Below, in pieces: positions 18,390 through 42,775 of a stretch of 64,000 nucleotides of DNA. Under the pieces are notes generated by a model. That model searched no databases, had not been told where the DNA came from, and saw only the letters and a list, made by a program, of their open reading frames with translations. Within the stretch, counting starts at the first letter, position 1, and each line of letters begins with the position of its first letter. The position numbers and the translations under genes are program-made. Source of the stretch: Enteractinococcus fodinae (GTDB lineage Bacteria > Actinomycetota > Actinomycetes > Actinomycetales > Micrococcaceae); contig NZ_JAVDYJ010000001.1 in the NCBI RefSeq assembly GCF_031458395.1, positions 310,001 to 374,000 on the forward strand. Reading direction: 5' to 3'.

Positions 18390-18434
18390 CGGAAACATTT
18401 GTCACAACCCATCAATGTACAGAGGTAGAACAAC

Positions 18435-25957: not shown

Positions 25958-26035
25958 ATGGCGACGTCGAAACCGCATTTCAGTGCGCGGAGCCACGTAA
26001 GTAACGATGTTCAGTTTCGTGGTGAGTTCCGATGA
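25958..26035 (+). CDS. 25-residue leader ORF coupled to the polysaccharide operon
   Basis: A short ORF with ATG at 25958, preceded by AAGGAGAGG about 10 bases upstream, ends in TGA overlapping the ATG of the dehydratase gene (ATGA at 26032-26035). It encodes a basic 25-residue peptide (starts MATSKPHFSARS, ends FRGEFR) with no signal sequence. The ribosome site and exact stop/start overlap suggest translational coupling and perhaps attenuation; the peptide itself may have no function. It could also be chance. Confidence 0.45.
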   Translation: MATSKPHFSARSHVSNDVQFRGEFR

Positions 26036-27822: not shown

Positions 27823-27824
27823 CC

Positions 27825-29018: not shown

Positions 29019-30052
29019 CCAAACGAGCCATAGATATTCTCGGAGCCAGCCTGGGTCTGATCGTCCTCGCTCCCGTGATGATCGTGCTAGCGATCCTGAT
29101 TCGTGTCAAACTCGGAGCCCCGGTGCTCTTTACCCAACTTCGACCCGGCAAAGATGGCGAACTGTTCACCATGTGGAAATTCCGGTCGATGCTGGAAGAA
29201 GACCCGGCCAAGGGGCTGCTTACCGACGACCAACGTATGACCAGCTTTGGTCGGCGGCTGCGAGCCACCAGCCTGGACGAACTCCCCACCCTGATCAACG
29301 TGCTCAAAGGCGACATGAGCCTGGTCGGTCCTCGACCGCTCAATGTCGAATACCTGCCACTGTACTCACCGGAGCAAGCACGTCGACACAACGTGCGCCC
29401 CGGCATCACCGGGCTGGCCCAAGTCACCGGTCGCAACGCCCTGTCGTGGGAAGCACGCTTCGACCTCGACGTGCACTACGTAGACCACCACAATGTGTGG
29501 CTGGATCTCAAAATCCTGGCCCAGACCGTCACTCGGGTCTTCGCCAAAACGGATGTCGAAGGCGAACAGATCTCGACGATGACCATGTTTGTCGGTGAAC
29601 CACCCTGCGATGGACTCACCGAAGCGCCACTGGATGACCGCTGGCAAGATCTCTGGGCATCGTGGCAGCGCAGCCCAGCTGCCCAGAAAATCGGTGACTT
29701 CGACGGTTTGGACGCCCGCACCACGCGTCACTGGGTCTACCTCGACGACCGGGCGATCCCCGTGGGCATCGCCGGGCTGTCTGGCTTAGGCGGCCCGCAA
29801 CTCCACGCCAGCATCGTGCTGGGACCACACCATCACACGACCATGGCGCTGGAAGCACTGTTGAACCGCTTGCTGTATCACGGCAAATCCTACGACGCCC
29901 ACCGCATCTTCCTGCGGTTATCCGATACCAGCCGAGAATTCTTCGAGATCGTTCAACTGCTCGGTTTCGTTCCACTTGACCAACCCCACCAGGGGACTGA
30001 CACCGATGAAGGCGAAGTGCTTGTGGCCTTCGCAGCACAGACAGGAACATGA
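29015..30052 (+). CDS. PglC-like phosphoglycosyl transferase fused to a GNAT-like domain
   Basis: Protein of 345 residues. Residues 1-185 are a complete small (monotopic) phosphoglycosyl transferase: reentrant N-terminal helix (DILGASLGLIVLAP), KFRSM, catalytic Asp88-Glu89 (SLDELP), GDMSLVGPRPL and RPGITGLAQVTGR. It would load a phospho-sugar on undecaprenyl phosphate. PglC ends near residue 200, but this protein has about 150 more residues. They hold a basic-aromatic strand (HWVYLDDRAIPVGIAGL) and an ASIVLGP...ALEALLNRLL...RIFLRLSDTSREFFEIVQLLGFVP pattern that fits an acetyltransferase (GNAT) fold. It may replace the missing PglD acetyltransferase. The first domain is certain; the second is inferred. 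Confidence 0.85.
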   Translation: MTKRAIDILGASLGLIVLAPVMIVLAILIRVKLGAPVLFTQLRPGKDGELFTMWKFRSMLEEDPAKGLLTDDQRMTSFGRRLRATSLDELPTLINVLKGDMSLVGPRPLNVEYLPLYSPEQARRHNVRPGITGLAQVTGRNALSWEARFDLDVHYVDHHNVWLDLKILAQTVTRVFAKTDVEGEQISTMTMFVGEPPCDGLTEAPLDDRWQDLWASWQRSPAAQKIGDFDGLDARTTRHWVYLDDRAIPVGIAGLSGLGGPQLHASIVLGPHHHTTMALEALLNRLLYHGKSYDAHRIFLRLSDTSREFFEIVQLLGFVPLDQPHQGTDTDEGEVLVAFAAQTGT

Positions 30053-30053
30053 G

Positions 30054-31133
30054 ATGCGCATCATTATCAGTTCGGCAGGACGCCGCGTCTATCTCGTCCA
30101 GTGGTTCCAAGAAGCACTGTATGAAGCCGGCATCGACGGCGACGTGATTGTCCTGGACTTTGACCCCAACGCTGCCACAGCCGCTGCGGCAGACGATTAC
30201 CGCCCGGTGCCAGCCTTCACCTGCCCAGAATACGCTGACGCGCTGCTCGACATTATCGACGAGCTTCAACCGGATCTGTTCATCTCGCTCAACGATCATG
30301 AGCTCACCGCCTTATCCGAAGGTCTGGCAGGCCAACTACGGGCACGCGGTGTCGTCACACCGGTACTTGATCAAGCATCACACCGAGCGGTGGCTGACAA
30401 GCTCGTCATGAGCCAGGTCTTACAACGGGCCGGTATCTCCACACCGACTACCGTGCTGATGTCTGACGTGATGGCGGTACACCAGCTACTCAACAAGCAC
30501 AGCCACGTCATCGTCAAAGACCGGTGGGGAAGTGGCTCTTCCGGGTTGCGACGCTTCACCGCAGATCAGGCTTGCCGCTGGGTCGAAGAACGCTACCTCA
30601 ACGCGACCGACGCCGAAGCACTGGGTTTTGATGAGATCATCTTCCAACCCGATGTTGGTGGTGAGGAATACGGCCTCGATGTGATCACCGCGGTCCGCGG
30701 GGGACCGGTCGAAGGAATCCTGGCCCGCAGGAAACTGGGCATGCGCCACGGCGAAACCTCCAGTGCCATGACAGTGCCAAACGCCCCGTTTATCGGACTG
30801 GCCGCCGCACTGAACGCCACCCTGGGGATCCGCGGCAGCGTTGATGTGGACGTGCTGCTCACCGCCGACGGCACTCCGTACGTCCTCGACGTCAATCCCC
30901 GGTTCGGTGGCGGCTACCCCTTTGTCCACGTTGCCGGGGCAGATCTGCCCCACTTCTACCTGGCCTCCACCCTAGGCTTTGCCCCCAGACCAGACTGGGA
31001 CAACTACCGCATTGGCTACATCGGCGCCAAACACGAAGGCATCATCGGTTTCGACACCCCAGACCAGACCCCCATCCCACAACCGGCTGAACACCGCAGC
31101 CGGATAACCATCCAGAAACGCGTAGGAATCTGA
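30054..31133 (+). CDS. ATP-grasp ligase, CarB/PylC-like (paralogue 1)
   Basis: ATP-grasp enzyme of 359 residues from ATG 30054, directly after the transferase stop. An N-terminal pre-ATP-grasp Rossmann unit (ISSAGRRVYLVQWF) is followed by the ATP-grasp nucleotide loop (VIVKDRWGSGSSGL near 150) and the metal-binding segment DVNPRFGGGYPF near 285. Such proteins join a carboxylate to an amine or thiol using ATP through an acyl phosphate. It is clearly paralogous to the ATP-grasp gene at 40074-41114. Each copy is paired with a PLP decarboxylase, so the two activities probably act on one compound. A likely product is an amino-acid-derived amide attached to sugar or lipid carrier, but this is inference. 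Confidence 0.82.
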   Translation: MRIIISSAGRRVYLVQWFQEALYEAGIDGDVIVLDFDPNAATAAAADDYRPVPAFTCPEYADALLDIIDELQPDLFISLNDHELTALSEGLAGQLRARGVVTPVLDQASHRAVADKLVMSQVLQRAGISTPTTVLMSDVMAVHQLLNKHSHVIVKDRWGSGSSGLRRFTADQACRWVEERYLNATDAEALGFDEIIFQPDVGGEEYGLDVITAVRGGPVEGILARRKLGMRHGETSSAMTVPNAPFIGLAAALNATLGIRGSVDVDVLLTADGTPYVLDVNPRFGGGYPFVHVAGADLPHFYLASTLGFAPRPDWDNYRIGYIGAKHEGIIGFDTPDQTPIPQPAEHRSRITIQKRVGI

Positions 31134-32596
31134 TGTTTGAACTCACCAATGCCAGCCAGTCCCACCGAGGAACCGGCCGACGAGACAACTACCCCATGGA
31201 GCTGCGCACCTACTGGCGCATGCTGTCCAAAAACTGGTGGATCGTAGTGGCCGGTGCCCTGGTCGGGCTGCTGCTGGGCCTGGGCGCCTCCGCCATGATG
31301 ACCCCACGGTACGAATCCACCGCCACGCTGTACGTTTCAGTCCGTGGCGTCGGCGCCGGCGACTCTGGAGACCTTTTCCAGGGCGCAAGCTTCGCCCAGA
31401 CGGTGGTCACCAGTTACGTTGACATCGCAACGACAGCCATCGTGCTCGACGGGGTGGCTGAAGAAATGGACGGCGAAGTCGCTCGTGACGAGATGCGCCG
31501 ACTGCTCAGCGTGCAATCTCCTGAGGGATCCTCGCTGCTGAACATCACCGGTGAACACTCCGATCCCGAAACGGCGGCCGCGCTGGTCAACACCACCGGA
31601 GAAACCCTCGTTGATGTGGTGGAGAACGAAATTGAAGTCGGCGCTGAAGGCGGCAGCTCTCCGGTGCAGGTCCGACTCATTGACCCAGGCATTGTGCCGG
31701 CAGAAAGCGTCAGCCCGAATTTCGCGCTCAATAGTGCGCTAGGCCTATTAGTCGGGCTGGCTTTAGGTATCGCACTGGCGATCCTCCGCGGCTCACTGGA
31801 TACCCGCATCCACTCGATTGCAGACGTCGAAGAAATCACCAACGTCCCGGTTGTTGGACGAATCGCGCTTGACGACAGCATCGCGCATCGCCCCTTGGTG
31901 GTGCATGACGATCCACGCAGTCCACGCGCCGAAGCTTTCCGTACGACCAGAACCAACCTGCAGTTCTTCGCGGCCAACGACGATGCACGTGTCTTTGTGG
32001 TCTCAAGCGCCACCCCGGGTGAAGGGAAAACCCACGTGGTGGCGAACTTGGCAGTGGTCCTGGCTGAATCGGGGGCACGCGTCGCCCTGGTCGAAGCGGA
32101 CTTACGCAGACCACGCCTCGCCCACGTCATGGGAATCGAAGGCGCCGTCGGACTCAGCGATGTCCTCATCGATCGAGCATCTTTGGAAGATGTCACCCAA
32201 CAGTGGGGCACCGACAACCTCACCGTGGTACCTGCCGGACAAATCCCACCGAACCCGTCTGAATTACTCGGCTCGCCCATGATGCGTGAAGTCATCAACA
32301 CGCTCCGGGAGACGGCAGACTATGTTCTCATCGATGCCCCACCGGTGCTACCCGTCACGGACGCGGCGATCCTTTCGACCTATGCCTCGGGCAGCTTGAT
32401 CGTCAGCTCCGTTGGCCAAACCCGACAGCAAAACCTCGAACAAGCCATCGAATCCTTGGAGAACGTGGGCGGGAAAGTCTTAGGGCTGATCGTCAATCGG
32501 GTGCCGATGCGCGGCTCCGCAAATTCTGGGTTCATTACCTATAAATACGTCGACAAATCCGAAACCGCGAAATCGAAAGCATCGAGGGTGGCATGA
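31133..32596 (+). CDS. Wzz/bacterial tyrosine kinase fusion (chain-length control)
   Basis: Protein of 487 residues. A Wzz-type domain with two membrane helices (about 35-55 and 203-220) flanks an extracytoplasmic part. A cytoplasmic BY-kinase domain follows with Walker A TPGEGKTH at 294-301, Walker A' ALVEADLRRPRL near 318 and Walker B LIDAPP near 396. The C-terminal tail has only two tyrosines (Tyr470, Tyr472) rather than a cluster. This fused form controls chain length and export of Wzy-dependent polysaccharide through cycles of phosphorylation, reversed by the phosphatase encoded next. TAGGAATCTG before the ATG supports the start, which overlaps the ligase stop. Confidence 0.88.
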   Translation: MFELTNASQSHRGTGRRDNYPMELRTYWRMLSKNWWIVVAGALVGLLLGLGASAMMTPRYESTATLYVSVRGVGAGDSGDLFQGASFAQTVVTSYVDIATTAIVLDGVAEEMDGEVARDEMRRLLSVQSPEGSSLLNITGEHSDPETAAALVNTTGETLVDVVENEIEVGAEGGSSPVQVRLIDPGIVPAESVSPNFALNSALGLLVGLALGIALAILRGSLDTRIHSIADVEEITNVPVVGRIALDDSIAHRPLVVHDDPRSPRAEAFRTTRTNLQFFAANDDARVFVVSSATPGEGKTHVVANLAVVLAESGARVALVEADLRRPRLAHVMGIEGAVGLSDVLIDRASLEDVTQQWGTDNLTVVPAGQIPPNPSELLGSPMMREVINTLRETADYVLIDAPPVLPVTDAAILSTYASGSLIVSSVGQTRQQNLEQAIESLENVGGKVLGLIVNRVPMRGSANSGFITYKYVDKSETAKSKASRVA

Positions 32597-33228
32597 CAAT
32601 TCGCATCTTGACCATTTGTACCGGAAATATCTGCCGCTCCCCATTTGCGGCGAGACTCTTAGCCACGAAACTGGACCGGAAGCAGTTCAGAACCGCTAGT
32701 GCCGGAACGTCAGCCATGCTCGGCGATCCGATGCAAGAAACCATGCAACAGCTCGCCAAGAAACTCGGAGTACAAGGAACCGAGAAGCACCGGGCACATT
32801 CGGTGACATCCGGCGTCGTGGCGCAAGCAGACTTGATCCTGGGAATGGAGCGTGAACACCGCAGCGAAGCGGCAAGATTCCACCCCAGTGCCGCACGTCG
32901 GTCCTTCACCTTGTTGGAATTCGCGCACATCGTCTCCTACATCAATGATGGACAACTCCAAACGTTATTGCTGCAAAGCGGAGACACCCCGACCGCTGCG
33001 ATTGAAGCGGTGGTTCGGATGCGCGGGGTTGTGCCTCGACTGAACCCTGATCGGCTGTATGACCTTCAAGATCCATATGGCCGTTCTCGGCAGGTATATG
33101 CCCGTTCAGCACAACAGATCGAACAGGCAGTCGACCGTATTGCCAGATTCTTTGAACATGCCGCAGAACTGAGCGCGGCTTTGAAAAACGGCTATCCAGC
33201 AATCGTCACGATGAACGACAGAAAGTAA
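32593..33228 (+). CDS. low-molecular-weight protein tyrosine phosphatase
   Basis: The phosphatase signature CTGNICRS puts the catalytic Cys9 and Arg15 at the very N-terminus. The general-acid Asp is in DLQDPYGRS near residue 157. At 211 residues it is about 50 longer than typical Wzb/Etp enzymes, with the extra stretch between residues 90 and 145. It should dephosphorylate the BY-kinase encoded just upstream and so allow polymer assembly to continue. Start overlaps the kinase stop by four bases (ATGA). Confidence 0.88.
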   Translation: MTIRILTICTGNICRSPFAARLLATKLDRKQFRTASAGTSAMLGDPMQETMQQLAKKLGVQGTEKHRAHSVTSGVVAQADLILGMEREHRSEAARFHPSAARRSFTLLEFAHIVSYINDGQLQTLLLQSGDTPTAAIEAVVRMRGVVPRLNPDRLYDLQDPYGRSRQVYARSAQQIEQAVDRIARFFEHAAELSAALKNGYPAIVTMNDRK

Positions 33229-33233
33229 CCACC

Positions 33234-34514
33234 ATGCAACCCACGCAGCGCGGATCACAGCAGCAGATGCCACCCACACCGGCTCTGGTCTTTGATGTGC
33301 CGAAACTCGATACTTTCCTGACCCGCTTCGAACAGGCGCTGGCGGAGCACTGGCCACACTCCGTGCTGTCCTACTCCTTCAAAACCAATTCGCTGCCGTG
33401 GTTATTGTCCTATATGAGACAACGCGGTATCTGGGCTGAAGTGGTATCTGACACCGAATACGAACTCGCGCTCGCGTTGGGTTACACCCCGGACCGCATC
33501 ATCTTCAACGGGCCTATCAAAGGCCGCGACCGGCTCTGGGCTGCCATGCTTCAGGGCACTGTGGTCAATCTCGATGCAAAACGCGAAGTCGAATGGGCCG
33601 CAGCATTGGCCCGTCAACAACCCGAAACCCCACTAGCGGTCGGGTTGCGCGTCAACTGGGACGTCAATGAATACTGCCCCGGTGAAAGCACCAGTGACGG
33701 GGCAGATAGCCGCTTCGGGTTCAGTCCCGCCAGCGGTGAACTTGACGCGGCGATATCCACCCTGCGTGATGCAGGAATACAGATCGCCGGGCTGCACATG
33801 CACCGCAACTCGTTGACCCAAAGCGTTGATGTATTCCGAGCGGCCGCAACGGTAGCCAGAGACCTTATTAGCTCGCGCGGACTGGAGCTGGACTGGGTGG
33901 ATATCGGAGGCGGCTTTTTCGGCGCCGAGCAGGGCCACCCGACCTTCGCCGATTATGTCTTGGCCATCCGCGAGGTACTTGAAGAGGTCATTGATCCAGC
34001 TCGCACCCGGCTTGTTGTTGAGCCAGGAGCCTCCCTGGTGGCGGTACCCCTGGAATTCCACGCCAGTGTCCTCGATGTCAAACAAGTCAAAGACCATACC
34101 TTTGTGGTCACCGATGCCAGCCGTACGAATATCGACCCGCTGTTTCGTCGCAAACGCCCATTCCAATACGACCTCGAGACCAACGCCACCCACACCCGGC
34201 CGTTACAGACCATTGGTGGGTACACCTGCATGGAGGACGACCGGCTCATGGATATCGAAGATGAGCCCGCCCTAGAAATCGGCGACCGGATCGTCTTCTA
34301 CAAGGTCGGCGGGTACACGATGTGCTACCAATCAAAATTTTTCATCGAGTTTCCGCCAGCCGTCTACATCCGCACCCATGAGGAAGAGCTCATATTAGTG
34401 CGCGAAAAGCCATCAGTCTCCGAATACTTACAAGGCCAGCAATGGATACCAGCCGGTGACCACATCAACGCTGCTGCGAATGGGAAGTCCCAATGGTTAG
34501 CACCTCACCTGTAA
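33234..34514 (+). CDS. fold-III PLP decarboxylase, ornithine/diaminopimelate type (paralogue 1)
   Basis: Protein of 426 residues with the alanine-racemase-like barrel plus C-terminal beta domain. PLP-binding Lys50 lies in YSFKTNSLPW, then His188/His190 in GLHMHRNS, the Gly triad 225-227 in DIGGGFF, and Cys332 in GGYTCMEDD, matching the catalytic Cys of ornithine decarboxylase. The usual Glu-Pro-Gly-Arg is Glu-Pro-Gly-Ala (263-266), a change also known in carboxynorspermidine decarboxylases. Substrate should be a basic or D-centred amino acid. It is the paralogue of 41483-42775 and lies in the operon as does the matching ATP-grasp ligase. It probably makes an amine used by the ligase. Confidence 0.83.
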   Translation: MQPTQRGSQQQMPPTPALVFDVPKLDTFLTRFEQALAEHWPHSVLSYSFKTNSLPWLLSYMRQRGIWAEVVSDTEYELALALGYTPDRIIFNGPIKGRDRLWAAMLQGTVVNLDAKREVEWAAALARQQPETPLAVGLRVNWDVNEYCPGESTSDGADSRFGFSPASGELDAAISTLRDAGIQIAGLHMHRNSLTQSVDVFRAAATVARDLISSRGLELDWVDIGGGFFGAEQGHPTFADYVLAIREVLEEVIDPARTRLVVEPGASLVAVPLEFHASVLDVKQVKDHTFVVTDASRTNIDPLFRRKRPFQYDLETNATHTRPLQTIGGYTCMEDDRLMDIEDEPALEIGDRIVFYKVGGYTMCYQSKFFIEFPPAVYIRTHEEELILVREKPSVSEYLQGQQWIPAGDHINAAANGKSQWLAPHL

Positions 34515-35803
34515 CGCAGCATCATCCAGCGCTTCAGCGTGCGCCGGTGCTCTTATTCTTCCTGGGCATCACGCTGAACCAAACCAGCGTCCTGTTCGAC
34601 ATCAACTTATCGATCGCGGACTTCTTTGCGCTGCTCCTGCTGGTGCTAACACTCCTCACGGCCCGGCTGTTGGTGCCCTTCGGCCCGACCATTTATTTTC
34701 TGGCCTTATCCATCCTGGTTCTTATCATGGGTGGTTTTGTCGTCCCCAACGTCATCAGCCTGGACCAAAGCTACCTTGATGTGTTGACCGATTACCTCAA
34801 GTTGGCGACCTCTTTCGCATACTTCCTCTTAGGCTTCAACATTGTTCGTGCGGGGCAAGCCAGAGTCGTGCTGCGTGCCTTTGCCTTCATGGCGGTCGTG
34901 ATCGGTGGTATCGGTGCGCTGCAAACTGCTATCCCTGCGCTGCCCCGGTTAGATTTCATGTTCTACTATGAAATCCGCTTCACCGGCCTGATGAGTGATC
35001 CGAATTATTTCGCGGTGATTCAACTAGTCGCTATGGCGGTCCTATGGCACGACCAAGACATCAGCCGGAGGATCCGCTACCCCTCGCTCATCATCCTGGC
35101 AGCCTCCGTGCTTGCTTCGGGCTCTAAGACCGGCATGCTAGCACTGCTGATCTTCTTAGTGTGGCGTGGTTTGCCCACGGTGTTCTCATTTTCCAACCGC
35201 AGCCGATATATCTCGCCCTATCGGGCCGTGTTGATCGGGTTGGTCGTGTGTGCACCGGTCCTGCTGCTGATTGTGATGCTGGACTACTCCATGCGCATGA
35301 GCCTGGCGTCAGGTCTTGACCAGGTACCAGCATTGAGTCGGCTCACTCCGCTATTGCTGGATTTCGAAGCCGGGGTCGAAGGCGATGGTTCCGGACGAGA
35401 CTCAGCCTGGTTCAATGCGATCCAGATCATCGGGCTGTTTCCCCTGTTCGGTGTTGGCATGGGCACCTATCTGGAGGTAGCCACCGAGTTTACTGATGTG
35501 CCTGTGCTCGCCCACAACACCTTCTTACAAATCGCCGCCGAATGGGGACTGATCTTCACGGCAATTTTCCTCGTGTGGGTCATCATCTTATTCCTGCGAC
35601 GCCCACCACTGGGCGCCAATCTAGCGCTGTGGCACTCGACCCGAGATGCGCTGCTGGTGTTGATGATCGGCTCCGCAGGCATCTCGCTGCAAAACTCCCG
35701 GCTGCTCTGGTTCATCATCGGCATGCTGCTGGCCGTTCATGTGGTCACAAAAACACGACAGTCTATTCAGCAGCGGTCACTCCACCAAGAGGTACAGCAA
35801 TGA
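34493..35803 (+). CDS. O-antigen polymerase/ligase-like membrane protein (Wzy)
   Basis: Protein of 436 residues with about eleven hydrophobic segments. The larger loop between the late helices contains RDSAWFNAIQIIG and HNTFLQIAAEWG, the pattern seen in the Wzy_C/O-antigen ligase family. It should polymerise lipid-linked repeat units on the outer face of the membrane. The start ATG 34493 overlaps the end of the decarboxylase by 22 bases and has GGGAAG upstream. The stop overlaps the GT4 start (ATGA). Confidence 0.82.
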   Translation: MVSTSPVTQHHPALQRAPVLLFFLGITLNQTSVLFDINLSIADFFALLLLVLTLLTARLLVPFGPTIYFLALSILVLIMGGFVVPNVISLDQSYLDVLTDYLKLATSFAYFLLGFNIVRAGQARVVLRAFAFMAVVIGGIGALQTAIPALPRLDFMFYYEIRFTGLMSDPNYFAVIQLVAMAVLWHDQDISRRIRYPSLIILAASVLASGSKTGMLALLIFLVWRGLPTVFSFSNRSRYISPYRAVLIGLVVCAPVLLLIVMLDYSMRMSLASGLDQVPALSRLTPLLLDFEAGVEGDGSGRDSAWFNAIQIIGLFPLFGVGMGTYLEVATEFTDVPVLAHNTFLQIAAEWGLIFTAIFLVWVIILFLRRPPLGANLALWHSTRDALLVLMIGSAGISLQNSRLLWFIIGMLLAVHVVTKTRQSIQQRSLHQEVQQ

Positions 35804-36957
35804 AAAAAGTCGTACTGATCCTAACCAGTGAAAATTCTGCTTTGACGTTCTACCGAAATTACCTGCGCTTCCTGCGCAAGCGCGGCTGGGACGTGACGGT
35901 CGTGGCCAACTCCAGCGGGGCGTTAGAAGAGTGGGCGGCCACCGAAGGTGCCATGGGCTACCACATCCCGTATGAACGCAACCCTTCGATGCTCAAAGAC
36001 CTCCAGACACTCTTTGCGACCGCCCGCCTGCTTCGGAAAATTCGTCCCGACGCGGTCGTGTCGGCGACCCCCAAAGGCGGGCTACTGGGCACCTTGGCGG
36101 GCAAGCTCGCCGGAGTACCGGTCCGTATCTACCAGCTGTGGGGCCTGCGATTAGAAACTGAAACAGGCTTGAAACGCAAAGTACTTGAAGCTTCCGAACG
36201 CACCGCGATCTCAGCAGCAACCCAGACAGTTGCCAATAGCTTCAGTCTGGCACGGGCAGCAGAAGCGCTCGGACTGGCCGCCCCCAACTCCATCGAAGTC
36301 CTGGGAGCCGGCAGCTCCCACGGCGTGGACCTCGAACGGTTCTCGCGTGCTGCTACCGGTCCGGTGGATGATCACACCGCAGCTTTTCTAGCGCAGGACA
36401 GCGATCTGAAAATCGTATTTATCGGTCGCCTCACCCCCGACAAAGGGATCTCCACGCTGCTGCAAGCAGTCAAAGCAGTGCGCGCTCGCGGTCTGAACAT
36501 CCGCCTACTCCTCATCGGTTCGGTTGAGGATCAGCGACTCGCCCACGAAGTTGCGGAAGCCGAACACATCCACCGACTCGACGACGTGGACGACGTACGC
36601 CCCTACATCACCTCGGCGGATGTCCTGTGTTTACCCACCCTACGAGAAGGGTTTCCCAATGTGGTGTTAGAAGCGGCAGCGCTCGAAGTTCCTTCCGTCG
36701 TTGCAGACGCTACCGGAGCTATTGATTCCGTCGTGGATGGTGAAACCGGTTGGATCTTTCCAGTCGAAAACGCTGAAGCTCTGGCCCAAATCATCACGGA
36801 GATCACTCACGATCCAGAACACATCCGACAGCGGGGGCGCCAAGCCCGCGCCAGAGTTGAACACGAGTTCGAACAAGTCTTCATGTTTGGACTACAAGAA
36901 GAAAATATCGCACAGCAGCTCCATTTGGTTGTGCCCACACAGCATGCGGAAACCTAA
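35800..36957 (+). CDS. glycosyltransferase family 4 (PglA-like)
   Basis: Retaining glycosyltransferase of 385 residues starting at ATG 35800 (AAGAGGT upstream, overlapping the Wzy stop). The GT-B fold is marked by the N-terminal VVLILTSENSALTFYRNYL, the linker GRLTPDKGI near 210, and the C-terminal EGFPNVVLE segment with the EX7E-type glutamates. PglA of Campylobacter, which adds GalNAc to undecaprenyl-linked bacillosamine, is a GT4 of this type. It is the only glycosyltransferase besides the initiating transferase in the operon, so the repeat may be as small as a disaccharide unless other enzymes lie elsewhere. Confidence 0.85.
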   Translation: MKKVVLILTSENSALTFYRNYLRFLRKRGWDVTVVANSSGALEEWAATEGAMGYHIPYERNPSMLKDLQTLFATARLLRKIRPDAVVSATPKGGLLGTLAGKLAGVPVRIYQLWGLRLETETGLKRKVLEASERTAISAATQTVANSFSLARAAEALGLAAPNSIEVLGAGSSHGVDLERFSRAATGPVDDHTAAFLAQDSDLKIVFIGRLTPDKGISTLLQAVKAVRARGLNIRLLLIGSVEDQRLAHEVAEAEHIHRLDDVDDVRPYITSADVLCLPTLREGFPNVVLEAAALEVPSVVADATGAIDSVVDGETGWIFPVENAEALAQIITEITHDPEHIRQRGRQARARVEHEFEQVFMFGLQEENIAQQLHLVVPTQHAET

Positions 36958-38241
36958 GTGACACAGCAAAAAGCAATCGGCCCGCACACGGGAACACCAC
37001 GCACCGAGCCAGCAAAAACGCGATCATCCGATCGCTACATCTTTGCCGCTGGCTCGCTCACGTGGGCATTGGCCCAGTGGTTCTTGGTGTGGCTGTTTGC
37101 TCAAGTAGGCGGTGGAGCCGCTGCAGTTGGGCAGTACTCCCTAACGCTCGCTGTGGTCACCCCGGTATTCATTATTGGTCAGTTCGGGCTGCGCACAGTG
37201 TATCTGAGCCTACAAACGAGCTTCACGTGGGTGTCCTATCTGATCCTGCGGCTCATTGGCATTGGCATCTCCATTGTGATCGTGGGCGCCTACTACCAGC
37301 TCAACCCCGAGCTCAATGTGCGTCTGCTGGCTGCGGTCGTCTTCGTACGCTGTTTCGATGTCTACTTAGACATTCTCTACGCCCGCTTTCAACGCGAGAA
37401 CCGACTGCTCCTTATCGGCCTCCATAGCCTTGTGCATAATTTTGGCACCATGACCATCGCCTTTGTCGCGATCTGGCTGACCGAATCCATCCCGCTAACC
37501 ATCTTATGCGTGGGCTTCGGTGCGATGATGGTCGCGGTATCAGCCCAGCGATATGTGGTAAAAACGCCCCCCGAACCCGGCACTATCAAGGGCGGGTATC
37601 GCCGTATTTTGCGTGCTGGGACGCCCACCACCGTTTCAGAAACCCTAGCGGCACTGTCGACGTACCTGCCCATCCTGTTTCTGTCGGTGATAGCTGACGA
37701 TGCCACCACAGGGGTCTTCGCGACTGCAGCCTATCTCCTGACGGCCGTAAACCTTTCGGGTTCGACTCTCAAAGATATTCTCATCACCTCATTCCGCTGG
37801 ACCTTTGAAGCATCTGGGTCCTGCGCGTTGCTCAAACGAGCCCATAAAATCGCCGGGATCATCATGCTCACGGTCGGCGCGACGATCCCGATCGTTATTC
37901 TTGCCGGCTCCCCAGTGCTGCAATTCATTTACGGCGAGGAATTCTCGCTGACCTACTGGGAGCTGACGATACTTTCTATCGCGATGCTTCCGATCGCCTC
38001 CTCATACATCTATGAGGGCACACTCAACGTCCTGAACGCATACTCGGGTCAGGCCTGGATTTGGTTCCTGGCGTGCTCATGCGGTGTCGGTGTCGGCTTG
38101 TTGGTCATCAATACACCCGGTATTCCTCCCATCATCGGGGCTCTGGCCGTAGCGGTTACGACCGGGTGGGGTAGGTTCATCGGCGCTTTTGCTCTAGCTT
38201 TCAGAGCGCAGCGCCGCACTCACACAAACAAGAGGCCCTAG
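36958..38241 (+). CDS. polysaccharide flippase (Wzx-like)
   Basis: Membrane protein of 427 residues with about twelve hydrophobic segments and no other domain. The pattern of polar residues in the first helices (SLTWALAQWFLVWLFAQVGG) and its position between GT4 and galE fit the MATE/MOP-type Wzx family, which moves lipid-linked repeat units across the membrane. GTG start directly after the GT4 stop. Function from context and topology; sequence marks for the family are weak. Confidence 0.78.
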   Translation: MTQQKAIGPHTGTPRTEPAKTRSSDRYIFAAGSLTWALAQWFLVWLFAQVGGGAAAVGQYSLTLAVVTPVFIIGQFGLRTVYLSLQTSFTWVSYLILRLIGIGISIVIVGAYYQLNPELNVRLLAAVVFVRCFDVYLDILYARFQRENRLLLIGLHSLVHNFGTMTIAFVAIWLTESIPLTILCVGFGAMMVAVSAQRYVVKTPPEPGTIKGGYRRILRAGTPTTVSETLAALSTYLPILFLSVIADDATTGVFATAAYLLTAVNLSGSTLKDILITSFRWTFEASGSCALLKRAHKIAGIIMLTVGATIPIVILAGSPVLQFIYGEEFSLTYWELTILSIAMLPIASSYIYEGTLNVLNAYSGQAWIWFLACSCGVGVGLLVINTPGIPPIIGALAVAVTTGWGRFIGAFALAFRAQRRTHTNKRP

Positions 38242-38250
38242 GAGGCTGGT

Positions 38251-39330
38251 ATGCGTGTACTTCTCACCGGCGGAGCCGGATACATCGGTAGCCACACCGC
38301 GTTAGTGCTGCTGGAACAGGGCCATGAGGTCGTGGTGGTCGACAATCTGTCAAACGGTAACCGAGTGGCACTCGACCGAGTCGAAGAGCTCACCGGGAAA
38401 ACCATCACCTTCGTGCAGGCGGATTTGACCCATGCTGGTGCGACCCGGATGGCCCTTGCCGGCATCGATTTTGAGGCTGTGGTGCATTTTGCCGGCCTCA
38501 AAGCTGTGGGAGAGTCGGTGGATCAGCCCGTGCGCTACTATCGGACCAATCTTGCATCGACGCTGACCCTGTTGGATCTCTTAGAAGAACGCGGGATCAC
38601 CAGGCTGGTGTTTAGCTCCTCAGCAACCGTCTACGGTGAGCCCCAAACTCCGTTGATTGCGGAAACCCATCGGACAGGAGTGGGGCTGACCAACCCCTAC
38701 GGGTGGTCAAAATATATGAATGAACAAATCATTCGCGATGCTGCAGCAACACGCCCCGATATGTCGGCGGTGCTGCTGCGCTACTTCAATCCGGTAGGTG
38801 CTCACCCCTCGGGACGCATTGGTGAAGACCCGGCCGGTATTCCCAATAATTTACTTCCGTTCATCGCCCAGGTCGCGGTGGGCAGACGACAGCAGTTGGC
38901 GGTTTTTGGTAATGATTACGACACCGTCGACGGGACCGGCGTGCGCGACTACATCCACGTCATGGACCTTGCCGAGGGGCATGTCGCGGCATTGAACCAC
39001 GCGACCTGCGGCGTGCAAACCTATAATTTGGGTTCTGGGGTCGGAACCAGCGTATTGGAAGCGGTGCGTGCTTTCGAAGAGGTATCCGGTCGGCCCGTGC
39101 CATACCAGATTAGTGCACGCCGAAATGGCGACCTGGCGACAGTCGTGGCGGATCCGCAGTTAGCCAAGGCGAAGTTAGACTGGCAAACTACTCGTACTTT
39201 CACGGAGGCTTGTCGCGACGCGTGGAACTGGCAATCTCAAAACCCCACCGGATACGAGCAGACGATCAAGGTCGTGATAGGTACTCCCGGACTTCAACGG
39301 ACCGCTGATCTGACGAGTAAACCGCGATAA
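38251..39330 (+). CDS. galE: UDP-glucose 4-epimerase
   Basis: Short-chain-dehydrogenase-fold epimerase of 359 residues. The N-terminal GGAGYIGSHT binds NAD, SSSATVYGE carries the catalytic Ser/Thr, and YGWSK holds the catalytic Tyr and Lys. FAGLKAVGESV and NLGSGVGTSVLE are both typical of GalE. It interconverts UDP-Glc and UDP-Gal, and in some species the N-acetylated forms, for the polymer. Last gene of the tightly packed operon; CTAGGAGGCTGGT precedes the ATG. The C-terminus is about 20 residues longer than E. coli GalE. Confidence 0.92.
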   Translation: MRVLLTGGAGYIGSHTALVLLEQGHEVVVVDNLSNGNRVALDRVEELTGKTITFVQADLTHAGATRMALAGIDFEAVVHFAGLKAVGESVDQPVRYYRTNLASTLTLLDLLEERGITRLVFSSSATVYGEPQTPLIAETHRTGVGLTNPYGWSKYMNEQIIRDAAATRPDMSAVLLRYFNPVGAHPSGRIGEDPAGIPNNLLPFIAQVAVGRRQQLAVFGNDYDTVDGTGVRDYIHVMDLAEGHVAALNHATCGVQTYNLGSGVGTSVLEAVRAFEEVSGRPVPYQISARRNGDLATVVADPQLAKAKLDWQTTRTFTEACRDAWNWQSQNPTGYEQTIKVVIGTPGLQRTADLTSKPR

Positions 39331-39372
39331 CTGGGCCCTGAGACCACGGGCAGGGAGCTCGAGGCTAGCCGA

Positions 39373-39999
39373 GTGCTCACGCAACAAAGCAGAAAGATGA
39401 TGCGCAAACTTAAAATCTTCAGCACCGCAGTCATCATCCTTGTCCTGGGATGGTTTCTTTTCGCTAGTGTCAGCATTTATGACCCGCGCCAAGGTGACAT
39501 TGAGGCTCATGCCGATGCGGTCGTGAGCCTCTCTCCGCCGCCCTATCGGTTGCCGCTAGCCGAAGAGTTGTATCACACAGGACATGCAGACAACTTGGCG
39601 ATCTCCTATGTGCCCGTCGATCCGCGCCACTATAACGCGGAGTGGGTCGCGGCGTGGCAGCCTGCCGAGTCCTATTGCGAAGACCCTGCTGACGAGCGTC
39701 ACGAAGCGGTGTGGTGCCTTACTCCAGAGGAGATCTCTACCCGGGGAGAAGCCTTAGCGCTTCGTGAGCTTGCCCAGACCCAAGCGTGGGAATCGGTGAC
39801 GATCGTGACAAGTCGATCCCACGTTTTTCGAACGCGGTTCATCTTTGAACGATGTGCGGCGGACACGGTCGACGTCAACGTTGTGTTCCCAGAGCCTGAC
39901 GTGTCTGTTGAAAGGTCCGAAGAAAACTGGGCCTGGCATATCGTGTATGAAAACGCTGCATTCTTCAAAGCCCTGTATGCGACTTTCGTAGCGTGTTAG
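39373..39999 (+). CDS. YdcF/SanA-like (DUF218) membrane-anchored protein
   Basis: Protein of 208 residues with one N-terminal membrane helix (about 14-32) and an outer domain. The outer part recalls YdcF/SanA: an ADAVVSLSPPPYRLPLAEELYHTG start, a STRGEALALRELAQ helix and an SRSHVFRTRFIFERC segment. The family Glu and Arg-His residues are kept, while the first Gly-rich loop is not typical. SanA/YdcF proteins act in envelope barrier function by an unknown mechanism. It lies 42 bases after galE and may be in the same operon. GTG start is probable; an ATG at 39397 is also possible. Confidence 0.6.
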   Translation: MLTQQSRKMMRKLKIFSTAVIILVLGWFLFASVSIYDPRQGDIEAHADAVVSLSPPPYRLPLAEELYHTGHADNLAISYVPVDPRHYNAEWVAAWQPAESYCEDPADERHEAVWCLTPEEISTRGEALALRELAQTQAWESVTIVTSRSHVFRTRFIFERCAADTVDVNVVFPEPDVSVERSEENWAWHIVYENAAFFKALYATFVAC

Positions 40000-40010
40000 C
40001 CGGCCGGTGC

Positions 40011-40049
40011 CGGCAAGTCGAAGCCATACAGATGTGGCTCAACTTGCCG
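40011..40049. terminator. hairpin between convergent genes
   Basis: CGGCAAGT (40011-40018) pairs with ACTTGCCG (40042-40049), with an inner AGCCA/TGGCT pairing. It lies between the YdcF-like gene and the convergent ATP-grasp gene. There is no T run, so efficiency is doubtful. Confidence 0.45.
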
Positions 40050-40073
40050 ACGAAACCAGGCACTCGTTTGCGC

Positions 40074-41114
40074 TTAGCCTTTACTAATGACAGTAAATTC
40101 CTCGCGACGTGCTGTGGTGACATTGTGTTCGTAGTCGAGCAGCTCGGGCAGATGCGCTAGCCCAGCTGCGGCCCGGACAAGGGCTGACGGCATATCTGCC
40201 CCGGCTCGATGCGAGAATGGATACCCGCCGCCCATTCGTGGGTTGACATCAATGACCATCGGCTCGCCGACGGCATTGTCACGGAAGTCAACATCAATGC
40301 TGCCGGTAGGACACAACAACTGCCCGAGTTTAATGATCGAGGCGCGGAACGGTGCGGGATCTACGGACGTGGCCAGGTCGGTATCTCCGCCTCGCATCTG
40401 CTCTTTACGCCGAGCGACCAACCCCAAGAACTCCGAGCGCCCGTCGACCGAAAATACTCCGTCAACCCCATATTCAGCACCGGGGAGGAAATCCTGAATG
40501 ATCACGGATTCGATATGGTGAGCGGGTTTGCCGTCCGGGCCCAGCGCGCTTTGAGCTGATTCATCCACTGCTTCCGCCAGCTCGTCAGCGGTGACAATGT
40601 GCACTCCGGTCGAACCTGCGCCGTAGCGGTGTTTGACCACGAATTTGCTGTCTGCACTGGAGTTCTCCAGAGCCAAGGCCACGTCTGAACCTAAGTAGGT
40701 TGACGGCGTCGGGATGCCGTACTCGTTGAGCTTTTCAGCGGTGTAGTGCTTGTCTAATACGATCTCGTGGGCTGCTTTGTTCAGGACAGCGACCGCGCAA
40801 CCAAGCTCGCGTAGCTCATCGGCCACTCCTTGGGAGAGTGCATGAGCCTCATAGTCATTCATACACAAAAATAGATCCGGGCGCTCCTTGGTGAACCAAT
40901 CTCGGATCATCGTCAGGTATTCAGGGCTGTTGTACGCAGGGGTCTGGTAGGCGCGGTCCGCCAGGCCCACGGTCGGGCTCGTGGCACGATAATCCAAAGC
41001 GATAACCTCGCCGGGGATCTCTTGGGTGCGCAGCGCGTCCTTGAACCATTGAATATAGTGTGCTCGACGTCCGGCCGAAGCAATCACGATCTTAAGATGC
41101 TGATTATTTGCCAC
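40074..41114 (-). CDS. ATP-grasp ligase, CarB/PylC-like (paralogue 2)
   Basis: ATP-grasp protein of 346 residues, GTG start with AAAGGAG nine bases upstream. It matches paralogue 1 (30054-31133) over the whole length: IASAGRRAHYIQWF start, VVKHRYGAGSTGVH nucleotide loop, and DVNPRMGGGYPFSH at the end. Expected chemistry is ATP-driven amide bond formation between a carboxylate and an amine. It is divergent from a paralogue of the operon decarboxylase, which reproduces the same two-gene module outside the operon. The shared gap at 41115-41482 probably holds the promoters of both, so this copy is controlled separately from the operon. Confidence 0.82.
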   Translation of the reverse strand: MANNQHLKIVIASAGRRAHYIQWFKDALRTQEIPGEVIALDYRATSPTVGLADRAYQTPAYNSPEYLTMIRDWFTKERPDLFLCMNDYEAHALSQGVADELRELGCAVAVLNKAAHEIVLDKHYTAEKLNEYGIPTPSTYLGSDVALALENSSADSKFVVKHRYGAGSTGVHIVTADELAEAVDESAQSALGPDGKPAHHIESVIIQDFLPGAEYGVDGVFSVDGRSEFLGLVARRKEQMRGGDTDLATSVDPAPFRASIIKLGQLLCPTGSIDVDFRDNAVGEPMVIDVNPRMGGGYPFSHRAGADMPSALVRAAAGLAHLPELLDYEHNVTTARREEFTVISKG

Positions 41115-41482
41115 CCTGGGTCTCCTTTGAGGCTCTTCAATTGATGTGGTGAGGTGTGCGCAGTTCGGGACGCTTCCGCGACGTCAGCGAGCCGCTGTAC
41201 GTGGCATACATCACACTGTATTGCCGGAGGTGTCGATCAGGCCAGGCCTAATGCGAAAATTTTTCATCATAGGAGCGTGGACGGGCAGACCCGTTGCGCG
41301 CTATCGCTAGACCGCATTACTACCGCATTAAAGTAGTGACATATGTCACGACACTGTCATAGTATAGACGTAGCCGCGTCCGCGGTGAACCCCCGGGCCG
41401 ATCAAAGTTCTCTTCTGAGCGGCAGCCCGGGTTCTCGCCAACAGATGTTGGCCACACTCCACATGCACAGGTAGGAAAGTTC
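41115..41482. promoter_or_regulatory. divergent promoter region with operator-like palindrome
   Basis: The perfect 14-bp palindrome GTGACATATGTCAC (41336-41349) overlaps a -35 TGACAT (41337-41342). A -10 TAGTAT (41360-41365) lies 17 bases further, so transcription of the decarboxylase would begin near 41373. The leader of about 110 nt contains CCCGGGC/GCCCGGG arms (around 41393-41432) and the hairpin GCCAAC-AGAT-GTTGGC (41437-41452) before the ribosome site GTAGGAAAG. The part from 41115 to 41335 shows nothing recognised beyond the start region of the ligase gene. Confidence 0.55.
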
Positions 41483-42775
41483 ATGGCTCACTCACTCACC
41501 CCTGAGAATCTTCAGCCGCCCACTCCGGCTTTTGTCATTGATGTCCCACTCCTGGAAAAGTTCACTGCTCGCTTCATGCAGGCGATGAAGACCTACTGGC
41601 CAAATTCGATCCTTGGTTACTCATTCAAAACCAACTCCCTACCCTGGTTGGTGGCGTTTATGCGGGATCGTGGTGCTTGGGCCGAGGTCGTCTCAGACGC
41701 CGAATACGAGCTCGCGTTGGCGCTGGGCTATACCCCTGATCGGGTGGTGTTGAATGGTCCGTATAAAACCCGTGATCGGCTTCGAGCAGCGCTGCTTGGC
41801 GGATCGATCATCAATCTCGATGCGAAGCGTGATGTCGAATGGACTATCGAGCTTGCACGCGAGATGCCAGACCGCGAATTCGGTGTGGGGCTGCGTATCA
41901 ACTGGGACCTTGAGACCCGGTGCCCCGGAGAAAGCACTTTCGGTGAGCAGAAGAGTCGTTTTGGGTTTAGTCCAGAAAACGGCGAACTGGATCAAGCGAT
42001 CTCGGCGCTTCAAACCGCGGGCGTGCGGATTGCTGGCCTGCATGTCCACCGAAACTCCCGCACCCAAAGCCTCAATGTGTATCAGGCTGCGGCAACAGTA
42101 GCCGCTGAGATCATTTCGTCGCGCGGGCTGGACTTGGACTGGATCGATATTGGTGGTGGCTTCTTCGGCAGTGAAGATGGCACACCAACATTCGAGGACT
42201 ATATGCGCGTGATCCGAGACGCTCTGGAACCTGTGGTCGACATTGACCGGACGTGTTTGATCACCGAGCCTGGCGGGGCGCTGGTGGCCGTCCCCTTCGA
42301 ATTCCATGCCAGCGTGGTAGATGTCAAGCAAATTGAAGGTCAGACCCTTGTGCTGACCAACGCCAGCCGCACCAACATCGATCCATTGTTCCGCAAGGAC
42401 GGTTCATATGACATCCGGATTGATACAGCAAGTACTGACCTACTGGCTGAACAGGTCTTGACTGGCTTTACCCTCGTCGAAGGCGATCGTCTGATGAAGC
42501 TTACGGATCAGCCCGCGCTGCAATTAGACGACAGAATCGTGTTTCACAAGGTGGGTGCGTACACCTTGTGCTTGCAACCAATGTTTATTGAATATCTGCC
42601 AGCTGTCTACGCGCGGACCGAGCATGAGCTGACCCTCGTGCGGAAAAAGTGGGGCGCGGCCGAATACGTGCAGGGCAGCCAGTGGACAGCAGCCACTGGC
42701 AAAGTCGAAACGGAAGCATCGTTGAAGCGACCGGTCAATGGGCCGCGGCAGGCTATGGCCGAACCCACATCTTAA
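41483..42775 (+). CDS. fold-III PLP decarboxylase-like protein (paralogue 2)
   Basis: Protein of 430 residues, near in sequence to 33234-34514 along its whole length. PLP lysine Lys49 (YSFKTNSLPW), HVHRNS, and the Gly triad 224-226 are kept. Two active-site positions differ from classical ornithine/diaminopimelate decarboxylases: Glu-Pro-Gly-Gly (262-265) instead of EPGR, and Leu331 where paralogue 1 and ornithine decarboxylase have the catalytic Cys (GFTLVEGD against GGYTCMEDD). It may thus act on another substrate or carry out a different reaction. It is divergent from ATP-grasp paralogue 2 and has its own regulated promoter. Confidence 0.8.
   Translation: MAHSLTPENLQPPTPAFVIDVPLLEKFTARFMQAMKTYWPNSILGYSFKTNSLPWLVAFMRDRGAWAEVVSDAEYELALALGYTPDRVVLNGPYKTRDRLRAALLGGSIINLDAKRDVEWTIELAREMPDREFGVGLRINWDLETRCPGESTFGEQKSRFGFSPENGELDQAISALQTAGVRIAGLHVHRNSRTQSLNVYQAAATVAAEIISSRGLDLDWIDIGGGFFGSEDGTPTFEDYMRVIRDALEPVVDIDRTCLITEPGGALVAVPFEFHASVVDVKQIEGQTLVLTNASRTNIDPLFRKDGSYDIRIDTASTDLLAEQVLTGFTLVEGDRLMKLTDQPALQLDDRIVFHKVGAYTLCLQPMFIEYLPAVYARTEHELTLVRKKWGAAEYVQGSQWTAATGKVETEASLKRPVNGPRQAMAEPTS

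Follow-up and report, generated by a model that had tools for sequence, protein, structure and literature searches.

The stretch of DNA analyzed here (64,000 nucleotides; from here on, the window) contains a co-directional run of exopolysaccharide genes that extends from 26032 to 39999 on the forward strand. The run begins with a gene for a PglF/CapD-type membrane-anchored UDP-GlcNAc 4,6-dehydratase (26032 to 27822; Pfam Polysacc_synt_2, 1e-104, and CoA_binding_3), which, given its presumed substrate, would perform the first step toward a 4-amino-4,6-dideoxy sugar. This gene is followed by genes for a DegT/PglE-type sugar 4-aminotransferase (27825 to 29018; Pfam DegT, 1.7e-97), for which the best NCBIfam models, the LegC family (350.7; cut-off, 420) and PseC (268.1; cut-off, 423.5), both scored below cut-off; a PglC-type phosphoglycosyl transferase (PGT) with a C-terminal GNAT-like extension of ~140 residues (29015 to 30052; Bac_transf, 1.8e-62); and AG1, a PylC-like ATP-grasp carboxylate-amine ligase of 359 aa (30054 to 31133). 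Then follow genes for a Wzz-type chain-length/tyrosine autokinase fusion (31133 to 32596; Pfam Wzz and AAA_31; NCBIfam TIGR01007 over cut-off), a low-molecular-weight protein tyrosine phosphatase (32593 to 33228; Pfam LMWPc), and DC1, an alanine-racemase-fold (fold III) PLP decarboxylase of 426 aa (33234 to 34514; Orn_Arg_deC_N, 3.8e-32). The end of the DC1 gene is overlapped by 22 bases by the start of a gene for a Wzy-type polymerase (34493 to 35803; Pfam Wzy_C). A GT4 glycosyltransferase ORF (35542 to 36957; domain search) as listed overlaps the Wzy gene, and its true start probably lies later. The run is completed by genes for a Wzx-type flippase (36958 to 38241; Pfam Polysacc_synt at 25.8 bits, under the cut-off of 28.2), a GalE UDP-glucose 4-epimerase (38251 to 39330; NCBIfam galE over cut-off), and, lastly, a DUF218 protein (39373 to 39999; domain search).

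Beyond this run, genes for another PylC-like ATP-grasp ligase, which falls in its own clade (AG2; 346 aa; 40074 to 41114, reverse strand), and a fold-III PLP decarboxylase homologue without the catalytic Cys (DC2; 430 aa; 41483 to 42775, forward strand) are divergently oriented with 368 bases between them. The reading frames for both ligases and both decarboxylases are all present at the coordinates given in the first-pass annotation. A gene for a GSDH glucose/sorbosone dehydrogenase-like protein lies at 42835 to 43995 on the reverse strand (domain search); such a gene adjoins the decarboxylase gene in Yaniella and Enteractinococcus too. Three promoter-like sites were detected between 39900 and 42900, all inside the AG2-DC2 gap and two with a hexamer in common, compared to a mean of 1.7 (SD, 1.4) in shuffles of this region. 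The first-pass annotation had placed one ligase-decarboxylase pair in the polysaccharide operon and described the other as divergent and separately controlled. The layout bears out the placement of both pairs, and separate control of AG2 and DC2 fits the divergent arrangement, with promoter-like sites near the shuffle level.

Pfam searches support the proposed family assignments for both copies. AG1 scored 60.7 bits for PylC-like_N (cut-off, 27) and 52.5 for ATP-grasp_3 (cut-off, 23.2), AG2 scored 51.4 and 42.4, respectively, also over the cut-offs, and both decarboxylases match Orn_Arg_deC_N. PRK12767 models (carbamoyl-phosphate-synthase-like ATP-grasp) gave the best scores for both ligases but stayed below cut-off, at 217.6 (AG1) and 189.2 (AG2) against 316. 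K116, K155, D264, D266, N281, and R283 are kept in 77 of 77 aligned ligase rows, and AG2 retains the ATP-grasp residues. With 131/332 identities (39%) between AG1 and AG2 and 245/406 (60%) between DC1 and DC2, both gene pairs are clear paralogues, as had been suggested. A search of the own genome at E ≤ 0.001 returned only AG1 and AG2 for the ligase family; for the decarboxylase, the only hit besides DC1 and DC2 was remote and partial (24% identity, E of 7.8e-6). In a tree, AG2 belongs to a clade of seven rows with a support of 99. Other genera carry both ligase types, AG1 and AG2, whereas a single decarboxylase was found in each of the 11 relatives searched; the pairs therefore did not arise in one joint duplication, and the idea of a duplicated module finds no support.

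The PLP lysine, stacking His, Gly loop, and EPG motif of alanine-racemase-fold conjugate decarboxylases are present in the decarboxylase family: K50, H188, H190, G225, G226, and E263-P-G265 occur in 83 of 83 aligned rows and G227 in 81. The catalytic C332, a residue that the partner subunit supplies in such enzymes, is found in 80 of the 83 rows and is directly seen in DC1 (motif CMEDDR), and a Met lies beside it in 78. In DC2 (LVEGDR) and its homologues in Yaniella (L018) and Enteractinococcus (L014), Leu replaces the catalytic Cys, and DC2 also lacks the adjacent Met.

Among solved chains, the N-citrylornithine decarboxylase FslC/FigC, whose kin include SbnH, AcsE, and MccE, was the best match to the family profile (229.7 bits), followed by DAPDC (188.6) and BtrK (154.1). 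FigC is a conjugate-type enzyme with a Met beside the Cys, as in our family, and it has lost the acidic residue that contacts the distal amine (PMC7857480). In contrast to the locus in the window, FslC/FigC, SbnH, AcsE, and MccE belong to siderophore or microcin pathways, and the ligase of FigC is an NIS synthetase. The first-pass annotation had envisaged decarboxylation of free basic amino acids; based on the FigC-like Cys-Met motif, such substrates are disfavored. Together, the motif and the best solved match suggest that the family acts on an amino acid conjugate. LysA was the best NCBIfam model for DC1 and DC2, but both scores (134.6 and 125.8 bits) are far under the curated cut-off of 297.9. 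The polyamine decarboxylase models likewise scored far under cut-off for DC1 (nspC, 48.3 against 409.05; speA, 21.6 against 624.1) and DC2 (nspC, 32.6; speA, 29.8). It had been anticipated that membership of both enzymes in a known lysine or polyamine clade would undo the module idea; judged by these scores and by the best solved match, FslC/FigC, such membership is disfavored.

As the module idea requires, the two families co-occur well beyond chance. In 59 of 66 Bacillota loci, a ligase gene lies directly downstream of the decarboxylase gene on the same strand; the remaining seven comprise one with the ligase one gene away, five with a different ATP-grasp, and one in which the decarboxylase gene is cut by the contig end. 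Among 200 genomes of one family, drawn evenly, the decarboxylase was found in 9 and the ligase in 16, including all 9 with the decarboxylase and 7 of the 191 without it (Fisher, 9.7e-12; 1.2e-10 without the query genome). The ligase gene is adjacent in six of these nine, and the other three have a different ATP-grasp in the decarboxylase locus. In a 396-genome sample of the phylum, four genomes, own included, have the decarboxylase, and the other three have an ATP-grasp_4 ligase and DegT within 10 kb. In three actinobacterial loci (L011, L014, and L018), no ligase gene is present, and the ligase is encoded elsewhere in the genome only. Across 83 Bacillota loci, 63 of 75 ligase calls follow a decarboxylase and 7 directly follow a PGT without a decarboxylase between, while 15 and 13 of 75 decarboxylase calls directly follow a PGT and DegT, respectively; in one locus (L120), PALP, another PLP enzyme, lies between PGT and ligase. 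Some relatives retain a dehydratase-DegT-PGT-AG-type cassette without a decarboxylase, i.e., the decarboxylase is optional. Of the 53 Bacillota loci that span 14 kb or more, 42 have a DegT aminotransferase nearby and 32 have PseI, and the Bacillota pair is often located in pseudaminic-acid loci.

The own genome has a second locus with the standard bacillosamine order dehydratase-aminotransferase (DegT)-PGT-PglD, and its first three proteins are 51%, 63%, and 52% identical to those in the window. The PglD of this locus has PglD_N and Hexapep domains and scores over the TIGR03570 cut-off. In the window, AG1 holds the place of PglD beside the dehydratase, aminotransferase, and PglC-type transferase, and no match to the own PglD was found in the window. 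Of 20 loci assigned to the PGT type, 5 have weak matches to this protein (22 to 40 bits), and all 29 genomes searched encode a TIGR03570 (PglD/NeuD) match at E ≤ 1e-10 at some position, over cut-off in 7. Of 49 Bacillota genomes that have the pair, 45 also encode a PseH-like acetyltransferase at some position (over cut-off in 4); given this and the frequent location of the pair in PseI loci, replacement of acetylation is not general in Bacillota. The window PGT gives a weak GNAT signal (ArsN2, 3.5e-5, under cut-off), and two Nesterenkonia homologues match Acetyltransf_1 at ~1e-3, also under cut-off; a Pfam search with the window PGT extension itself gave no match.

The first-pass annotation knew of no described pathway with this combination. 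Among the literature matches listed, none has the exact ligase-decarboxylase combination in a polysaccharide locus; the parts, however, have precedents in neisserial PglB2, the ATP-grasp of C. difficile type B flagellin, and C. jejuni Cj1438/Cj1436. PMC11130364 and PMC6959607 attribute to PglB2, an ATP-grasp/phosphoglycosyltransferase protein of the GATDH pathway, a sugar that bears a glyceramido rather than an acetamido group; the latter paper terms the transfer step "proposed". As would be the case in the window, an ATP-grasp replaces the acetyltransferase in a dehydratase-aminotransferase-phosphoglycosyltransferase cassette, and a non-acetyl acyl group is placed on the 4-amine. While PglB2 unites transferase and ATP-grasp in one protein and adds a glyceramido group, the window has separate frames (29015 to 30052 and 30054 to 31133), a GNAT-like extension on the transferase, and an added decarboxylase; the likeness is one of gene arrangement. 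BtrJ/BtrK similarly combine an ATP-grasp ligase, BtrJ, which is the partner in butirosin biosynthesis and has a second use, with an alanine-racemase-fold decarboxylase. BtrK decarboxylates carrier-bound glutamate, leaving GABA (PMC7857480, in part); the carrier there is an acyl carrier protein, and a motif scan found ACP-like ORFs in 1 of 91 sequences scanned and none in the window. In C. difficile (CDR20291_0245-0247), an amino-deoxy sugar carries an amino-acid chain on its amine that depends on the ATP-grasp gene, and the CDR20291_0245 mutant lacks the aminoacylated Fuc3N cap; there, the partner is ornithine-cyclodeaminase-like, and no fold-III decarboxylase is named in the cited parts of PMC5207246 and PMC5207245. 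The latter also describes Leg5GluNMe7Ac of C. botulinum flagellin, in which an amino sugar bears a glutam-4-yl amide.

Based on the co-occurrence and the amino-sugar and undecaprenyl-sugar priming genes near the pair, an amide-linked decoration of a sugar precursor, one of the options raised initially, is the best reading. Specifically, we give an even chance to the window being a PglB2-like variant of the bacillosamine (PglF-PglE-PglC-PglD) priming cassette in which an amino acid is ligated and then decarboxylated; we infer the substrates, the order of steps, and the product by analogy. The dehydratase and aminotransferase, judged by family, would generate a UDP-2-acetamido-4-amino-4,6-dideoxy sugar. 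AG1 would join an amino acid to its 4-amine, instead of or besides acetylation, probably via the side-chain carboxylate of a dicarboxylic amino acid (Asp, Glu, or a longer one). DC1 would then strip the α-carboxylate, giving a cationic ω-amino acyl amide such as, by analogy with FigC and BtrK, a beta-alanyl or 4-aminobutanoyl amide, and the PGT would initiate the exopolysaccharide repeat by loading this sugar onto undecaprenyl phosphate. In genomes that have AG2, this ligase may acylate the amine freed by decarboxylation in a ligate-decarboxylate-ligate relay. The ligases outside the decarboxylase locus in L011, L014, and L018 speak against this proposal, and the acetyltransferases elsewhere (PseH-like and TIGR03570 matches) weaken the idea of PglD replacement.

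The GNAT-like extension of the window and Nesterenkonia PGTs could itself acetylate the 4-amine, yielding ordinary diNAcBac and leaving the pair to modify another amino sugar of the polymer, which would agree with the PseH-like genes in Bacillota. This we consider unlikely: in Yaniella (L140), the AG1 relative adjoins the dehydratase, and in Enteractinococcus (L142), it adjoins both the dehydratase and DegT; the PGTs called in these regions are short (203 to 220 aa) and lack the extension, and none of eight PGT-AG loci without a decarboxylase has a match to the own PglD within the fetched stretch. The same linkage data, and a decarboxylase gene that precedes the ligase gene in most Bacillota operons, also agree with the reverse order, in which a free ω-amino acid of the beta-alanine/GABA type is made and then coupled to the sugar amine, although gene order says little on reactions. 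We attach little probability to this order: FigC, the nearest solved enzyme, and BtrK act on conjugates, although DAPDC, which ranks second, uses a free amino acid; moreover, the ligase occurs without the decarboxylase in the same cassette and can, therefore, use an acid that has not been decarboxylated.

Alternatively, the decarboxylase could make a free amine that the ATP-grasp couples to a uronic acid carboxylate of the polymer. For this chemistry, the precedent is a C. jejuni capsule locus that encodes both an ATP-dependent amide ligase, Cj1438, which acts on glucuronate, and a decarboxylase, Cj1436, which makes ethanolamine phosphate (PMC11800397). Of the 53 Bacillota loci, 8 have a UDP-sugar dehydrogenase within 10 kb, against 42 with DegT nearby, and such a dehydrogenase is also present in several AG loci without a decarboxylase. 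In the window, no UDP-sugar dehydrogenase scores over cut-off, the sole match (22.5 bits) lies inside the GalE frame, and clear matches are located at 1.21, 1.23, and 2.41 Mb. Cj1436 has a PLP fold other than fold III. With AG1 in the place of PglD and a decarboxylase in which the acidic residue that would accommodate a free basic amino acid appears to be missing, we regard uronic acid decoration as improbable. For AG2 and DC2, a non-catalytic remnant or a regulatory role might be suspected from the loss of a Cys called conserved in all such decarboxylases in the cited part of PMC7857480, the loss of the adjacent Met, and an Enteractinococcus AG2-like gene that matches only in two pieces with stops. 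This is very unlikely, as DC2 retains the PLP Lys, both His, GGG, and EPG, AG2 its ATP-grasp residues, and the DC2 type is the only decarboxylase found in Yaniella and Enteractinococcus. By sequence comparison (pN of 0.084 and pS of 0.80 between DC2 and its Yaniella homologue), this type is under strong purifying selection in three genera.

The ligation-decarboxylation proposal provides a testable assignment for a gene pair that some actinobacteria and Bacillota have in their exopolysaccharide and pseudaminic-acid loci. If true, it predicts that bacterial coats contain a class of monosaccharides that owe a positive charge to an amino-acid-derived group, which would have a bearing on surface charge, adhesion, and immune recognition; in the literature searched, we found no description of a cationic, amino-acid-clipped surface sugar. 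Cys-360 mutants of ornithine decarboxylase act as a decarboxylating transaminase. In a broader scenario that we hold to be doubtful, surface sugars in two phyla would carry an N-linked amino acid that is decarboxylated on the sugar and becomes cationic, lineages with AG1, decarboxylase, and AG2 would reacylate the amine, and loss of the Cys would have made the DC2 clade a decarboxylating transaminase that leaves an aldehyde on the sugar. With DC2 and its relatives, the analysis also points to a naturally occurring clade in which fold-III decarboxylase homologues lack this Cys.

All four reading frames were present at the coordinates assigned to them in the first-pass annotation. Two encode PylC-like ATP-grasp ligases of 359 and 346 residues with 39% identity (AG1, 30054-31133, plus strand; AG2, 40074-41114, minus strand), and two encode fold-III (alanine-racemase-fold) PLP decarboxylase homologues of 426 and 430 residues with 60% identity (DC1, 33234-34514, and DC2, 41483-42775, both plus strand). 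A search of the 2.93-Mb genome, which is a single contig, returned no further close copies of the ligase (AG) or the decarboxylase (DC). The genes at 26032-39999 are all co-directional, in the order dehydratase, aminotransferase, priming transferase, AG1, Wzz/kinase, phosphatase, DC1, Wzy, GT4, Wzx, GalE, and DUF218, and AG2 and DC2 come next as a divergent pair. A single base separates the end of the gene for the PglC-type priming phosphoglycosyl transferase (PGT; 29015-30052) from the start of AG1. A promoter scan of the AG2/DC2 divergent gap gave three sites, all inside the gap and not clearly in excess of those in shuffled sequences. Elsewhere in the window, an MFS transporter gene is followed by genes for an amidohydrolase, a TPP enzyme, an arginase-family protein, and an aldehyde dehydrogenase (13118-21465), and this region resembles a gene set for the breakdown of a nitrogen compound.

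The proposal that the two families belong together was borne out by a neighbourhood search for co-occurrence, through both linkage in Bacillota and a draw of 200 genomes. The decarboxylase led to 66 Bacillota loci, which, like 14 actinobacterial loci, were retrieved with two short peptide patterns and do not form an even sample. In 59 of the 66, the ligase gene comes immediately downstream of the decarboxylase gene on the same strand; of the other seven, one has the ligase one gene away, five have an ATP-grasp_4 protein instead, and in one the contig ends within the decarboxylase gene. In the same scan, 11 of the 14 actinobacterial loci contained an AG match, which in L010 is in two pieces, and the genomes of the three loci without one (L011, L014, and L018) carry AG elsewhere. 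Even samples comprised 200 genomes of one family and 396 genomes of the window's phylum. In the family, DC was present in 9 genomes and AG in 16, including all 9 with DC (Fisher test, 9.7e-12); six of these nine have adjacent pairs, and in three the DC locus carries an ATP-grasp_4 ligase, with the usual AG located in a different cassette. In the phylum, DC was present in 4 of the 396 genomes, the window genome counted, and the other three have an ATP-grasp_4 ligase and a DegT aminotransferase at most 10 kb away. Thus, the decarboxylase accompanies an ATP-grasp ligase even where the ligase family differs. The ligase-decarboxylase pair is a real module that extends beyond the window. The exact combination was not found among the literature matches listed, and the accessible part of PMC13317340 mentions neither ATP-grasp nor decarboxylase.

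The module occurs in amino-sugar contexts. In the 53 Bacillota loci spanning 14 kb or more, we counted DegT aminotransferases in at least 42 (pooling PseC, WecE-like, and other types), PseI in at least 32, PseF in at least 31, PseB/CapD in at least 20, a priming transferase in at least 13, and a UDP-sugar dehydrogenase in at least 8, all of which are lower bounds as greedy gene picking drops some overlapping genes; this picking shows no AG in L036, L043, and L047, where a separate locus search does find it. Single representatives of PseI, PseF, PseB, PseG, and PseC scored over the NCBIfam cut-offs. The intermediate common to these contexts is a 4-amino-4,6-dideoxy sugar. Across 83 Bacillota loci, 15 and 13 of the 75 DC calls, a total that counts second fold-III homologues from L017 and L022, directly follow a priming transferase and DegT, respectively. 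Of the 75 AG calls, 63 come immediately after DC and 7 immediately after a priming transferase. In L120, a PALP-family PLP enzyme (8441-9457) lies between the priming transferase and the ATP-grasp gene, in the slot held by the decarboxylase in other loci. Thus, in the PGT-type cassette, the ligase appears to be the core, with the decarboxylase as a tailoring addition.

Among solved chains, the DC family profile matched FslC/FigC best (229.7 bits), followed by DAPDC (188.6 bits) and BtrK (154.1 bits); the alignments used for the PDB search comprised 39 DC and 44 AG rows. According to the accessible part of PMC7857480, the substrate of FigC is N-citrylornithine and that of BtrK is a glutamyl carrier protein. 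In FigC, the position next to the catalytic Cys, whose residue otherwise binds the distal amine of a basic substrate, is taken by Met (PMC7857480, section 8), and Met stands there in 78 of the 83 aligned DC rows. The best solved match and this Met together argue, at the level of sequence, for a conjugate as the decarboxylase substrate. The idea in the first-pass annotation that the enzymes convert basic amino acids is disfavoured by the same FigC-like motif, and a LysA or polyamine enzyme identity was rejected on profile scores. A carrier-protein system of the Btr kind was also considered and rejected, as a motif scan of the window found no ACP-like ORF. A uronic acid in place of the amino sugar as the acceptor is a minor rival, demoted because no UDP-sugar dehydrogenase in the window scored over the cut-off. 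The most probable role of the pair is to aminoacylate and decarboxylate an amino-sugar precursor, not to convert basic amino acids. In the proposed reaction, an amino acid would be ligated to the sugar amine via its non-alpha carboxylate and then alpha-decarboxylated; because alpha-decarboxylation would come after ligation, the linkage would have to go through a second carboxylate, as Asp, Glu, or a comparable amino acid would provide. The accessible part of PMC5207245 describes a glutam-4-yl amide on the nonulosonic acid nitrogen of Clostridium botulinum flagellin. The predicted chemistry would be a new version of the types known from PglB2 and BtrJ/BtrK.

The sharpest comparison for the window cassette is a second exopolysaccharide locus in the same genome. 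This region (~2.424-2.434 Mb) encodes Wzz, a phosphatase, CapD, DegT, a priming transferase, and the acetyltransferase PglD, and contains the full standard bacillosamine cassette, with PglD as its last gene (L149 4761-9600, ~2.4287-2.4335 Mb). The three shared biosynthetic proteins, CapD, DegT, and PGT, are 51%, 63%, and 52% identical to those of the window, respectively. PglD has PglD_N and hexapeptide domains, and no match to it was found in the window. The window cassette has AG1 where the second cassette has PglD, an arrangement that resembles neisserial PglB2 versus PglB; in the accessible parts of PMC11130364 and PMC6959607, the ATP-grasp domain that replaces the acetyltransferase in PglB2 is credited with producing the glyceramido sugar GATDH. 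In Yaniella, too, one cassette contains a match to PglD (95 bits), and an AG lies separately beside another dehydratase. In the second polysaccharide region of the window genome, a UDP-sugar dehydrogenase homologue with an in-frame stop (2408865-2409413) lies near an intact one (2413046-2413594).

Aminoacylation need not replace acetylation everywhere. PseH-like genes were present in 45 of the 49 genomes searched, which lie behind 50 of the 66 Bacillota loci, and all 29 of 29 genomes had a match to the PglD/NeuD model TIGR03570 somewhere, over the cut-off in 7. The window PGT (29015-30052) has a C-terminal GNAT-like extension, called from weak signals, that is common to Nesterenkonia (L006 and L007) and is not in the PGT copy of the second cassette. 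These three observations weaken a blanket replacement of the acetyltransferase by the pair, and we retain replacement for the PGT-type cassette only. Weak matches to the genome's own PglD (22-40 bits) occurred in 5 of 20 loci assigned to the PGT type, which were hand-picked and include L017 for its likeness to L022 with no PGT called, and in none of the eight PGT-AG loci without DC.

The two pairs did not duplicate together; trees of both families and genome counts reject joint duplication. In the AG tree (33 rows, some partial), AG2 falls in a seven-row clade (support 99) with Nesterenkonia, Brachybacterium, Brevibacterium, and Corynebacterium lubricantis, and AG1 lies elsewhere, grouped with sequences partly from the same genomes. 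In the DC tree (36 of 83 rows), DC2, Yaniella, and Enteractinococcus form one group (support 100), and DC1 is placed near it with weak support. Each of 11 actinobacterial genomes searched, a set outside which the genome of L006 falls, had one DC match at E <= 1e-40 and at least one AG match, and only the window genome has two decarboxylases among these actinobacterial genomes. Several lineages combine a ligase from the AG1 side with one DC and AG2 (L006, L007, L013, L082, and L016/L085, the last two from one assembly). Based on the trees and per-genome counts, the ligase split is old, barring spread by transfer; AG2 would be older than the genera sharing it, assuming no transfer between them. 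AG2-like matches are split into two separate pieces in C. lubricantis (L010 3947-4816 and 9499-9837) and into two pieces with stops in Enteractinococcus (L117 and L118), and AG2 may therefore be decaying in some lineages.

DC2 reads LVEGDR where others have CMExDR, a change shared among the 83 rows only with Yaniella and Enteractinococcus; these Cys-less homologues (41483-42775; L018 9968-11260; L014 9977-11275) form one clade. The catalytic Cys is called conserved across all such decarboxylases in the accessible part of PMC7857480. DC2 keeps the PLP residues and is under purifying selection despite the missing Cys (pN 0.084 and pS 0.80 versus Yaniella; pN 0.143 and pS 0.741 versus Enteractinococcus; synonymous sites saturated). 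Possible explanations are use of another acid, a switch to transamination, or a role as the partner of DC1. A GSDH gene adjoins the Cys-less homologue in all three genomes seen (window, L018, and L014).
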